Shown here in pieces: positions 181-35,526 of a stretch of 48,297 bases of DNA; positions within the stretch are counted from its first letter, which is position 1; every line of letters starts with the position of its first letter. The stretch lies in NCBI GenBank assembly GCA_001871125.1, contig MNXB01000003.1:1-48297 (forward strand). The letters run 5' to 3'. The notes beneath the pieces were generated by a model, which had not been told where the DNA came from, ran no database searches, and saw only the letters and a list, made by a program, of their open reading frames with translations. Source of the DNA: Elusimicrobia bacterium CG1_02_37_114 (GTDB lineage: Bacteria > Elusimicrobiota > Endomicrobiia > CG1-02-37-114). Position numbers and translations under genes: made by a program.

Positions 181-410
181 TATACTATAACAGTGACTTG
201 TATGTCAAACTTACCACAGGAGGGGCTTGACTACAAAGTCTCAAATTAATAGAATATAGCTCTTTATAAAACTACAGGTAAGAAAACGTCCCGATAAATT
301 AGATAATCCTGCGGATAAATCGGGACGCTACAGGTAAGTAAAATCCTGAAGGATTAACTCCAGGGATTCCCCAATTTATTGGGGCTATACTTTCCTTGTA
401 TATTAAAAAA
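181..410. repeat. Intergenic repeat cluster upstream of nfnA
   Basis: This 230-base gap is almost entirely repeats. CTACAGGTAAG occurs at 272-282 and 328-338. Between them lies a palindrome with arms CGTCCCGAT (287-295) and ATCGGGACG (319-327), whose centre holds one 21-base KLDNPAD-type unit (293-313). Positions 336-361 match, inverted, the segment 29184-29209. Positions 363-406 carry CCCCAATTTATTGGGG followed by TATAC and TTGTATA boxes, nearly identical to 9664-9707, and end four bases before nfnA. Any promoter for nfnA probably lies in this last module. Confidence 0.75.
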
Positions 411-9630: not shown

Positions 9631-9707
9631 AGAACCTACTGTCGGTTAAAACTGGACGCTACTGGGATTCCCCAATTTATTGGGGTTATAATTTCCTTGT
9701 ATAATAA
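9617..9707. repeat. Inverted repeat plus palindromic promoter-like module after rlmB
   Basis: Arms CGTCCAGTT (9617-9625) and AACTGGACG (9650-9658) flank a 24-base loop containing GAACCTACTGTCGG, related to the insert in nfnB. Positions 9664-9707 then repeat the module found at 363-406: a CCCCAATTTATTGGGG palindrome followed by TTATAAT and TTGTATAATAA. The second TATAAT could be the -10 box for the LysM gene that starts 27 bases later. Confidence 0.7.
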
Positions 9708-10255: not shown

Positions 10256-11682
10256 AATTAGATTATTCAAACTGTTTAAAAGAATTCGTTGGTAACGAAG
10301 GAATTTCTACTGAAGAAATAGAAGCTTTGAAATCAAAACTTCAGACCACACACAGTGAAGTATTAAATAAAAAGTCTGCAGGGCAGTTAGGTTTTATGGA
10401 GTTGCCTTATAAAGTTGACGAGGCAAAGAAGATAAGACAGTTTGCAGTAAAAAATAAAAATAGATATGACGATTTTATTGTGATTGGCATAGGGGGTTCT
10501 GCCCTTGGCAACACCGCATTACAGCAATCATTGAGGCATACATACTGGAATTTATTGAACAGGAAGTCCCGAAAAAACTGGCTGAGGTTATTTGTGCCGG
10601 ACAATGTTGACCCGACCCTTCTGTCCGATTTGCTGGAATCAGTTAATCTGAAACGGACCCTGATAAATATCATATCCAAATCCGGGACAACTGCCGAATG
10701 CCTGGCGAACTTTTTTGTGATAAAGGATAAACTGATAAAAAAAGTCGGTAGGAAAAAATATCCTGACCATGTAATCATTACCACTGATAAAGAAAAAGGT
10801 TATTTGCGTGAACTTGTAAAAAGCGGTGAATCAATTGCTAATTTTGTAGTACCACCCAATGTCGGCGGAAGATTTTCGGTTTTATCGCCGGTAGGACTGG
10901 TTTCAGCGGCATGGACAGGTATTAATATCATGAAACTCCTTGCAGGTGCACAGGAGATGGATAAGAAATGTTCAAGTAATGATGTTCAGAAAAATCCTGC
11001 ATTGATGTATTCCGCACTGCAATATTTGTTGTACTGGAAAGGCAAGAAAACAAGTGTTATGATGCCGTATTCAAATTCTTTATACGGCATAGCGGACTGG
11101 TTCAGGCAGTTGTGGGCGGAAAGTTTAGGTAAGAAAACAAACAGGAAAAACGAAACTGTTAATGTCGGACCTACTCCTATAAAATCTTTAGGTGCAACTG
11201 ACCAGCATTCGCAGGTGCAACTTTATATAGAAGGTCCCTATGATAAAATAATAACATTCCTGTCAGTTGAGAAATTCAGGAATACCGTGAAGATACCAAA
11301 AATTGATAAATTAGATAATCCTGCGGATAAATTAGATAATCCTGCGGATAAAAGTCATTATTTAGGCGGACACAGTTTAAATGAACTTCTGAAATCAGAA
11401 GAACAGGCAACAAGACTGGCACTGACCCAGCAGGGGAGACCGAATTGTTCCATTATATTACCTGAAATAAATGAATCTTCCATAGGGCAGCTCATTTATA
11501 TGTTAGAACTTGCCACTGCATATGCAGGAGAACTGTTTGACATAAATGCGTTTGACCAGCCGGGTGTGGAATTAGGTAAACAGTTGACCTATGCACTGCT
11601 CGGCAGACCAGGTTATGAAGATAAGAAAAAAGAACTGCTGGACCATTTCAATTCCTACGATAAAAACAAAAAAGTAATATAA
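10240..11682 (+). CDS. pgi: Glucose-6-phosphate isomerase with a tandem repeat insertion
   Basis: This enzyme interconverts glucose 6-phosphate and fructose 6-phosphate in glycolysis and gluconeogenesis. The signatures GIGGSALGNTALQ (near residue 84), ISKSGTTAECL (near 147), the PNVGGRFSVLSPVG motif (near 208) and the catalytic GATDQHSQVQLYIEGP segment (near 320) are all present. Length is 480 aa. Near residues 356-371 the protein reads DKLDNPADKLDNPADK: two tandem copies of a seven-residue unit encoded by 21-base DNA repeats at 11305-11346, the same repeat seen between genes and in the radical SAM gene. The insert sits in a surface-type linker just before the YLGGHSLNELL motif, so the enzyme may still work. 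Confidence 0.93.
   Translation: MDQQLKLDYSNCLKEFVGNEGISTEEIEALKSKLQTTHSEVLNKKSAGQLGFMELPYKVDEAKKIRQFAVKNKNRYDDFIVIGIGGSALGNTALQQSLRHTYWNLLNRKSRKNWLRLFVPDNVDPTLLSDLLESVNLKRTLINIISKSGTTAECLANFFVIKDKLIKKVGRKKYPDHVIITTDKEKGYLRELVKSGESIANFVVPPNVGGRFSVLSPVGLVSAAWTGINIMKLLAGAQEMDKKCSSNDVQKNPALMYSALQYLLYWKGKKTSVMMPYSNSLYGIADWFRQLWAESLGKKTNRKNETVNVGPTPIKSLGATDQHSQVQLYIEGPYDKIITFLSVEKFRNTVKIPKIDKLDNPADKLDNPADKSHYLGGHSLNELLKSEEQATRLALTQQGRPNCSIILPEINESSIGQLIYMLELATAYAGELFDINAFDQPGVELGKQLTYALLGRPGYEDKKKELLDHFNSYDKNKKVI
11305..11352 (+). repeat. Two tandem 21-base KLDNPAD units inside pgi
   Basis: Units 11305-11325 and 11326-11346 are identical. Each begins GATAAATTAGATAAT and ends CCTGCG, and a third GATAAA closes the array at 11347-11352. 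The frame in pgi reads DKLDNPA repeated. Other copies are at 293-313, 28619-28639 and, inverted, 35485-35505. Confidence 0.9.
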
Positions 11683-15830: not shown

Positions 15831-16682
15831 ATGCAAAAATTATCAGGTATCCGTAAAAAAATTGATGTTGTGGATAAAAAAATATTGAACTTACTCAATG
15901 CCAGGGCAGATTATGCCCTGGATATAGCAAAAATTAAAGAGTCGTATGGCGGAGAGTATTATTTGCCTCATCGCGAGAAAAAAGTAATTACAAACATAAA
16001 CACAATGAATAAAGGACCTCTGTCCAGGGAAAATGTTGAAGCGATATATCAGGAAATATTAAATTCCTGTAGAAGTTTGCAGAGGCGTTTGCGTATTGCA
16101 TATTTAGGTCCCGAGGCCACATTTACACATCTTGCAGCAATTAAAAATTTTGGGAGATATACGGATTTTATATCTGCAAATAGTATAGCGGATGTATTTT
16201 CTGAAGTTGAAAAGCAGAGGGTTGATTACGGTGTTGTTCCGATTGAGAATTCTACTGAAGGAGTAATAAACCATACGCTTGATATGTTTATGGAATCAGC
16301 TATGTTAATCTGTAATGAGATAAATTTACCAGAGGTTCGGATTATAGAATCTTCATCAACTGCCCGGTTGGCAAAGAAAGCGAGGTTTCTGGTTATAGGC
16401 AGGACTACTTCAAAAAGGTCAGGGCAGGATAAGACCTCAATAGTGTTTTCGGTAAAAGACCATATAGGTGCATTATATGACATGCTTGTCCCGTTTAAAA
16501 AGAACAAGGTAAACCTGACAAAGATTGAGTCAAGACCGACAAGAAAGAAAGCCTGGGAATATGTTTTCTTTATAGATTTTCTGGGACATATAGAAGATAA
16601 AAATGTGAAATCCGCACTTAAGGAATTAAATAGACATTGTGCGTTTTTAAAGGTTCTCGGGTCATATCCCCGTGCAGAATAG
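15831..16682 (+). CDS. pheA: Chorismate mutase / prephenate dehydratase, dehydratase core deleted in frame
   Basis: Residues 1-85 are an AroQ-type chorismate mutase (LSGIRKKIDVVDKKILNLLNARADYALDIAKIK). Residues 88-150 are the first lobe of prephenate dehydratase (YLGPEATFTHLAA, VVPIENSTEGVINHTLD). Residues 197-275 are an ACT domain with the ESRP phenylalanine-binding motif. Between them two conserved blocks are missing. After EINLP the protein jumps to EVRIIESSSTA, losing about 35-40 residues including the usual SHPQ segment. After LAKKA it jumps to RFLVIG, losing about 35 residues including the Thr of the catalytic TRF motif. At 283 aa it is about 75 shorter than typical P-proteins, and the frame is intact. 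Mutase and ACT functions may survive; dehydratase activity probably does not. Start ATG 15831 follows the previous stop by one base. Confidence 0.88.
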   Translation: MQKLSGIRKKIDVVDKKILNLLNARADYALDIAKIKESYGGEYYLPHREKKVITNINTMNKGPLSRENVEAIYQEILNSCRSLQRRLRIAYLGPEATFTHLAAIKNFGRYTDFISANSIADVFSEVEKQRVDYGVVPIENSTEGVINHTLDMFMESAMLICNEINLPEVRIIESSSTARLAKKARFLVIGRTTSKRSGQDKTSIVFSVKDHIGALYDMLVPFKKNKVNLTKIESRPTRKKAWEYVFFIDFLGHIEDKNVKSALKELNRHCAFLKVLGSYPRAE

Positions 16683-28036: not shown

Positions 28037-28945
28037 ATGATAAAATACATCAATTATAATTGTAAAACAATCCTGAACAGGACAAAACCTGCAGGGGTTG
28101 ACCCTTTTATCGGGACAGTGAACCCATATACGGGTTGCGAGCATGGATGCAGGTATTGCTATGTCCAATCAGAAAAATATCTGCCTTACAAAACCCCGGA
28201 TGAACTGTTTTATACCGTGAAGATAAAAGACAATGCTCCGGCATTATTGAATTATGCACTGGAAAAAACTTCCCAGGGTATGATATGCATAGGCTCTTCG
28301 GCAGACCCTTACCAGCCTGCAGAAAAGGAATACTTGATAACGCGTGAAATATTGAATATAATAAATCGTCATCAATTTTCCGTACATATATTTACGAAAT
28401 CCGACCTTATCACCAGGGACCTGGATATATTAAAAGATTTAGCTAAAAGAGTTACCGTGCTTGTATCGTTTTCAATTATCACGCTGGATAAAAATATTGT
28501 TGATGTATTTGAACCGAATGCGCCGGAACCAAAAAAACGTATCAATGCAATGAATAAATTGAGCGAGAACGGAATAACTGTCGGTTGTTCAATAATGCCC
28601 ATTCTGCCTTATATAACGGATAAATTAGATAATCCTGCGGATAACGGGAGTCTTGAAGAATTAATAAGAACCGTCAAATCCAACGGTGCTAAATATGTGT
28701 GGTCGGGATGTTTAACCCTTCGAGATAAACAGCGCCAGAGATATGAGAGTATTCTTTCGGACAGATTTAAACCATTAATAGGAAAATATCGTTTCCTGTA
28801 TAGTGCCAGAATCAGTCCTGAAGAAAAATATTGTAACAGGTTGCACTACAGGATTGAGGAACTTTTAGATAAATACAATCTTGAACATGATTTTTCAGTT
28901 GAAAATACTTTAAAGGTAGTTCAACCAGAATTCAGTTTTGTTTAA
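28037..28945 (+). CDS. SPL-like radical SAM protein with one KLDNPAD insertion
   Basis: This 302-residue radical SAM enzyme resembles the group related to spore photoproduct lyase (also labelled Rv2578c-like). The cluster motif is GCEHGCRYCYVQS near residue 35-47, preceded by FIGTVNPYTGC. Further family phrases are IGSSADPYQPAEKEY near 85, IFTKSDLITRDLDIL near 117 and EPNAPEPKKRINAMNKLSENGI near 160. After PILPYIT the protein reads DKLDNPADN, one copy of the 21-base unit also present twice in pgi. The substrate is unknown. The neighbouring kor operon gives no clear functional link. Confidence 0.85.
   Translation: MIKYINYNCKTILNRTKPAGVDPFIGTVNPYTGCEHGCRYCYVQSEKYLPYKTPDELFYTVKIKDNAPALLNYALEKTSQGMICIGSSADPYQPAEKEYLITREILNIINRHQFSVHIFTKSDLITRDLDILKDLAKRVTVLVSFSIITLDKNIVDVFEPNAPEPKKRINAMNKLSENGITVGCSIMPILPYITDKLDNPADNGSLEELIRTVKSNGAKYVWSGCLTLRDKQRQRYESILSDRFKPLIGKYRFLYSARISPEEKYCNRLHYRIEELLDKYNLEHDFSVENTLKVVQPEFSFV
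28619..28639 (+). repeat. Single 21-base KLDNPAD unit inside the radical SAM gene
   Basis: The unit is identical to those in pgi and at 293-313, and again reads in the KLDNPAD frame. The word GGATAA occurs on both sides (from 28618 and from 28639), so the insertion is flanked by a short direct repeat. Confidence 0.9.
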
Positions 28946-35344: not shown

Positions 35345-35374
35345 TATGGTTAATATTAAACGTTCTAATTGAAA

Positions 35375-35446
35375 TGGCTGCGAGAGGATTCGAACCTCCA
35401 ACATACGGCTTATGAAACCGCCGCTCTACCATTGAGCTACGCAGCC
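35375..35446 (-). tRNA. tRNA with CAT anticodon (Met or lysidine-Ile)
   Basis: A full cloverleaf reads on the minus strand: acceptor arm GGCTGCG/CGCAGCC, D arm GCTC...GAGC, anticodon loop TTCATAA with CAT, T arm GGAGG-TTCGAAT-CCTCT and discriminator A; no CCA is encoded. The acceptor begins G-C, so it is not an initiator with a mismatched 1-72 pair; elongator Met or Ile(CAU) are the options. It lies 30 bases upstream of the amidase start on the same strand. Confidence 0.93.
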
Positions 35447-35460
35447 ATTATAGAACTTAG

Positions 35461-35526
35461 GAATTCACCCTTTAGGGTTTTATCCGCAGGATTATCTAAT
35501 TTATAAAAGGCTAAAGCCTTAATTCC
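35461..35526. repeat. Composite repeat with an inverted KLDNPAD unit between mcsB and the tRNA
   Basis: The segment holds CCCTTTAGGG (35468-35477), the 21-base unit in inverse orientation (35485-35505, one mismatch) and the 22-base block with AAGGCTAAAGCCTT (35505-35526) that is identical to 29157-29178. It shows that the separate repeat modules can be joined in one element. The rest of the 35447-35582 gap is AT-rich with no gene. Confidence 0.8.

Follow-up and report, generated by a model that had tools for sequence, protein, structure and literature searches.

A tiny, probably mobile repeat inside housekeeping genes of an uncultured Elusimicrobia bacterium

How DNA words of about 20 nt become mobile has been an open question since the small dispersed repeats (SDRs) of Nostoc and relatives were described (Elhai et al. 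2008, doi 10.1101/gr.074336.107). SDRs are about 20-27 nt long and occur in many dispersed, near-identical copies. They can insert precisely into a short target word, as with SDR5 into HIP1 (cited in PMC4390886), and are tandem and possibly mobile (PMC2884548; see also PMC3116915). SDR4-6 reportedly share a common secondary structure with compensatory changes. In contrast, Rickettsia palindromic elements (RPEs) are selfish short DNA inserted in frame in unrelated housekeeping genes and also between genes (PMC10969869); they are palindromic, ~100-150 bp long, and encode a conserved peptide. REP/REPIN elements are tiny non-autonomous extragenic palindromes with a GTAG-type tag, mobilized by RAYT Y1 transposases. 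Additionally, MITEs are non-autonomous dispersed elements with terminal inverted repeats and target-site duplication, minisatellites grow in tandem, and IS200/IS605-type elements insert without duplication at a fixed tetranucleotide and end in a similar tetranucleotide.

The window analyzed here is a 48,297-nt stretch of Elusimicrobia bacterium CG1_02_37_114 (assembly GCA_001871125.1, contig MNXB01000003.1). A first-pass annotation had noted five copies of a 21-base unit in it, read as KLDNPAD in two genes, and had proposed a mobile or amplifying element tolerated inside proteins, comparable in concept to the Rickettsia elements but with a different sequence. The observation is confirmed: all five copies are present at the positions given. 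The word GATAAATTAGATAATCCTGCG is exact at 293-313, 11305-11325, 11326-11346 and 28619-28639 and has one mismatch at 35485-35505 (minus), whereas 100 dinucleotide shuffles gave 0 matches, and none is expected by chance. Both window genes read it as DKLDNPAD. However, comparison with empty sites shows that the natural unit starts 2 bases later, TAAATTAGATAATCCTGCGGA, and in that phase all five window copies are identical. The features of the window are as follows.

295-315, plus strand: unit copy (natural phase) in the loop of a GTAG-type REP hairpin, between CGTCCCGA and TAAATCGGGACG (hairpin 287-327); empty CGTCCCGATAAATCGGGACG sites occur elsewhere in the genome
10240-11682, plus strand: pgi (glucose-6-phosphate isomerase, by NCBIfam/Pfam) carrying two tandem units, which are absent from the 71% identical orthologue of G002 (one of the genomes compared) and from PDB 2q8n
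11307-11327, plus strand: unit copy 1 in pgi, read DKLDNPAD
11328-11348, plus strand: unit copy 2 in pgi, in tandem
28037-28945, plus strand: Rv2578c-type radical SAM gene carrying one unit; two same-order orthologues lack 6 residues here
28621-28641, plus strand: unit copy in the radical SAM gene
35483-35503, minus strand: intergenic unit copy, 36 bp upstream of tRNA-Met (35374-35447, minus)
9670-9685, minus strand: empty REP-type loop CCCCAATAAATTGGGG, the unoccupied counterpart of sites filled elsewhere (e.g. positions 16088, 6321 and 985 of the genome's contigs C82, C115 and C10)

Absence of the unit from the rest of the genome had been singled out in advance as an outcome that would count against an element. 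Instead, the draft genome (2.09 Mb, 130 contigs) holds 107 matches at <=3 mismatches in the originally noted phase and 110 in the natural phase, against 0 for the reversed pattern. Among 99 relatives (4 of the same order, the rest class or phylum, and none of the same genus or family), only isolated hits were found, one at 2 mismatches and the others at 3. The 20-base core has no exact match in GTDB r220 or, with one free base, in IMG/VR, and no convincing phage, plasmid or viral relative was found. The nearest named relative of the radical SAM gene is an Elusimicrobia MAG, at 48% identity.

To define the unit, we examined 870 kb around the hits, about 42% of the genome. In its natural phase the unit is YAAANNAGATARTCCTGCGGA, with two sub-families, TAAANNAGATAATCCTGCGGA and CAAANNAGATAGTCCTGCGGA. 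Copies are either essentially perfect or not there: we observed 99 exact 15-base cores, one recurrent variant carried by a multicopy repeat, a few point changes, and no clear tail of decay. They form 87 arrays, of which 71 are single, 9 double, 6 triple and 1 quadruple. The recurrent variant (TAAATTCGATAATCCTGCGGA) lies in a longer (>100 bp) dispersed repeat, which carries it in eight copies (C6:167, C9:1207, C39:218, C46:914, C72:5584, C93:17463, C95:22560 and C105:7818) and lacks it in four others; here the unit hitch-hikes on another repeat. Moreover, the mixed array at C117:10209-10250, where an A-type and a G-type unit adjoin, shows repeated insertion, whereas homogeneous arrays of private variants (three TAAACAAG units on C53, two TAAAAAAG units on C77) show additional local amplification. 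Nested unit-in-unit insertions were sought and none was found. In the six loci searched for host RNA genes, only tRNAs lay nearby and none was interrupted.

The same genome contains unoccupied versions of four occupied contexts, CGTCCCGATAAATCGGGACG, CCCCAATAAATTGGGG, AGCCCCAACAAGTTGGG and the junction GGAAATTATAAAAGGG. Each filled version is longer by exactly 21 bases at A^YAAA (the caret marks the point of insertion), with no duplicated target. At less typical targets (TGAC, TATA, TAAC, CAGG), the unit still begins YAAA; its left end therefore belongs to the element and not to a duplicated target, which rules out target-site duplication. Over 41 sites with independent flanks, A occupies -1 in 33/41, G -2 in 19/41 and C -4 in 18/41, while Y occupies +1 in 40/41, A +2 in 37/41, +3 in 33/41 and +4 in 27/41, and T +5 in 23/41. 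The target, (G)A^YAAA, resembles the joint between two tandem units (CGGA^YAAAT). Furthermore, A-type units precede T in 29/33 and G-type units precede C in 7/8 (Fisher 5e-5). This matches an outer base pair of a mini-hairpin RTCC-TGC-GGAY, which is imperfect, 4 bp long and weakly stable in silico, although the A/T to G/C covariation might be a single lineage event. Non-coding A^TAAA sites inside hairpin loops, mostly GTAG-type REPs (compare PMC3733652), are occupied at 10.8%, against 1.3% for other A^TAAA sites (p 2e-8). This hints at single-stranded targets, although filled REPs may themselves have been copied. Several GTAG-tagged or CCCC/GGGG REP-like hairpin families (CGTCCCGATAAATCGGGACG, CGTCCAGTTTTAACTGGACG, CCCCAATAAATTGGGG, GTCCGAATTCGGAC) occur at 287-327, 369-384 and 9670-9685 of the window and at many other places in the genome.

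A 30-bp sister (10 codons), YAAATTAGACCGACTTCGTCGGCCTGCGGA, has the same ends and a different, strongly palindromic centre. It occurs three times in the genome: next to a unit in ftsI, in a REP loop upstream of a RAYT gene (between CGTCCAGT and TAAAACTGGACG), and in mutS. All three copies follow the N^YAAA rule. The ends therefore define the element, which slippage cannot explain. A larger element with the same ends was not found up to 77-bp spacing genome-wide, and the 870 kb held no convincing pair up to 4 kb.

With a codon-based gene caller built for this work, which gives approximate gene calls, 39 arrays lie wholly inside ORFs, although a few N-terminal ones may be start mis-calls; about half the arrays are outside genes. 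The hosts are housekeeping genes; those named by NCBIfam/Pfam include PGI, an Rv2578c radical SAM protein, MoeA, L4, L19, adenylate kinase (Adk), MraZ, FtsI/PBP2, EtfB, RnpA, PfkA, LarE, Lnt, AccA, RsmI, TopA, Ssb, PriA (two sites), an NADH-dehydrogenase/antiporter subunit, TrpE and a GH57 enzyme. Comparison of each host with its orthologues had been laid down beforehand as a test of clean insertion. Against same-order genomes, the net extra length is exactly 7 aa in GH57, Adk, MraZ, EtfB, an SPL-like protein and one PriA site (one G002 fragment apart), 8 in PfkA and the second PriA site, 14-16 for two units in TrpE and 19-22 for three in Lnt. Overall, it equals 7 aa per unit within 2 aa in 32 of 49 comparisons, whereas random positions of the same proteins give >=5 extra aa only 6.5% of the time. 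Exceptions exist. In L4 (positions 1838-2518 of locus L077), the region around the unit is about 20 aa longer than in orthologues, and another 13 aa were thus gained next to the 7-aa insert; in FtsI, the orthologues are the longer ones; in PGI, the surplus over G002 is 9 rather than 14, because the loop itself varies. Solved chains of PGI, Adk and PfkA in the PDB lack the segment. An AlphaFold model of PGI, predicted to place the insert, had a pLDDT of 45 and was of no use for this purpose.

The first-pass annotation had also named a constant KLDNPAD frame as a test of its claim, and this expectation is not fulfilled. Coding copies lie in both orientations and five frames and are read as DKLDNPAD-type (22 sites), antisense SAGLSNLS-type (10), TNKIVLRT-type (5), IRRIILFI (1) and YPQDYLIY (1). 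The TT variant of the A-type, which carries stops in sense frame off1 and antisense frame off1, never occurs there inside genes (0 of 23), although 37-47% of comparable targets would put it there. The caller itself favors open frames, and this is suggestive rather than a clean test, but insertion plainly happens at the DNA level, and the claim of mobility is strengthened.

Based on these observations, the earlier interpretation is supported, with two corrections: the unit is not always read as KLDNPAD, and the nearest described elements are the cyanobacterial SDRs rather than the much longer, palindromic Rickettsia elements. In our reading, to which we assign a probability of roughly 0.6, the unit is an ultra-short, non-coding mobile DNA element, with a rarer 30-bp sister sharing both ends, that has spread, apparently recently, to about 87 places in this one lineage. 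The data directly establish a precise, orientation-defined insertion of exactly one unit between two adjacent target bases, without target duplication, in either orientation and in genes or intergenic DNA, as well as tandem arrays formed both by repeated insertion and by local amplification. Copies that would put stops into genes are missing, as expected if selection removes them; because the unit is 7 codons long, the survivors merely lengthen proteins. We are highly confident that the unit is a mobile ultra-short repeat, although no sequencing reads, second strain or long-read assembly was examined, and it would be one of the smallest mobile DNA elements known.

How the unit moves is a matter of inference, and here our reading is tentative and less likely than not: the unit would move as a short single strand, made and joined at A^YAAA by host machinery or by a nuclease or transposase acting in trans. 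Read on the bottom strand, the unit inserts after TTTR and itself ends in TTTR (TTTR^TCCGCAGGAYTATCTNNTTTR^), with no duplication, which has the logic of Y1/HUH (IS200/IS605-type) transposition. The genome has eight Y1 matches, of which the four tested are RAYT-like. However, no mobilizing enzyme, donor or excised form was found. None of the Y1 genes is linked to the unit, no unit lies in the Y1 loci, and recognition of the unit's ends by a Y1 transposase was not assayed. The weak 4-bp hairpin of the unit leaves little for a Y1 enzyme to hold. The one multicopy Y1 element, a RAYT-like gene in several near-identical (86-100%) copies (loci L191, L193 and L194 on contigs C126, C58 and C13), has quite different ends that match among its copies (AAAGAATGGGGACGG...CCGTCCCCATTCTTT), so that it is apparently a mobile element rather than a single-copy RAYT. 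A bolder version, unlikely but not ruled out, is that the unit is the smallest end-defined mobile DNA module known, a 21-30-nt single-stranded element inserted by a dedicated, still unknown trans-acting enzyme at A^YAAA, which routinely adds heptapeptides to essential proteins and is so a natural in-frame insertion-mutagenesis system.

The main rival, which we consider unlikely but possible, requires no dedicated enzyme: the unit would spread by replication template switching at microhomology, with a nascent strand ending in (CN)GA or in TTTA pairing with an existing unit, copying one period and returning to its own template. The target resembles the unit-unit joint on both sides, with the left-hand preferences given above and YAAAT and G at +8 enriched on the right, and a one-period gain without target duplication follows naturally. 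Additionally, one possible out-of-phase insertion, the only one seen, exists on C61 near 28832 (minus), with CGGACAAATAAGATAGTCCTG between TTTATGTG and TGAATAATA. In contrast, homology is often only 1-5 bases, there is no significant trade-off between left and right match, and nearly all copies share one phase. Such a process should also spread arbitrary tandem words in any genome, yet these two related words dominate here.

More doubtful is RNA-templated insertion by the single reverse transcriptase of the genome (locus L195, C130:4954-5541), or through an RNA intermediate as has reportedly been proposed for the cyanobacterial small repeats. This RVT_1 protein matches group II intron and UG/DRT-type models but falls below the curated NCBIfam cut-offs, and it begins like the reverse transcriptases of diversity-generating elements. 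Tandem units could arise from multimeric cDNA. However, no unit copy lies in the reverse transcriptase locus, no unit-containing RNA was shown, and the enzyme may be unrelated; the route is possible but has no direct support.

A coding minisatellite or KLDNPAD peptide module under protein-level selection, amplified by slippage, is refuted by the frame and empty-site data: although arrays of 2-4 units exist and the KLDNPAD-type reading is the commonest (22 of 39 coding sites), about half the arrays lie outside genes, the hosts are unrelated proteins, and the 71 single copies are at mostly unrelated places, while slippage as the sole source is rejected by these dispersed singles, the mixed arrays and the sister. 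An assembly or library artefact (an adapter-like 21-mer), suggested by the draft metagenome-assembled sequence and the near invariance of the unit, is very unlikely given the two sub-families, the 30-bp relative, the strict target motif, the absence from stop-creating frames and the occurrence inside a multicopy repeat.

Here the element has exact empty sites, two defined ends, a sister with a swapped centre and a sharp target rule, so that the mechanism is open to testing with synthetic units. The genome also shows dozens of proteins, many of them essential in other bacteria (ribosomal L4 and L19, PriA, TopA, adenylate kinase), that tolerate heptapeptide insertions, a natural map of tolerant loops.

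Finally, we compared the unit with each described system. Like MITEs, it occurs as non-autonomous dispersed copies, and like minisatellites, it grows in tandem; however, it has no terminal inverted repeats and no target duplication, and most copies are single and dispersed. Like REP/REPIN elements, it is a tiny non-autonomous repeat, and the genome contains GTAG-type REPs and RAYT-family genes, with many units in REP loops; the unit itself is not a palindrome, lacks the GTAG motif and is abundant inside genes. The unit shares with IS200/IS605-derived elements the duplication-free insertion at a fixed tetranucleotide and the similar tetranucleotide at its end. It invades many unrelated genes in frame like the RPEs, but it is 21 bp long, not palindromic, and read in five different frames. 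The closest comparison is with the 21-27-nt SDRs of Nostoc, which the unit resembles in its length (the minor sister being 30 bp), its many near-identical copies, its precise insertion into an intact target and its confinement to one lineage. For a structure shared with SDR4-6, we observed only the mini-hairpin with its A/T to G/C change, whose weak energy and possible origin in one event leave the matter undecided. The unit differs from the SDRs in sequence, as far as tested, and in phylum, in its target (A^YAAA rather than HIP1) and in the large share of its sites that lie inside protein genes in several frames. It works like the small dispersed repeats of Nostoc, which are known but unexplained, and invades genes like the Rickettsia palindromic elements.
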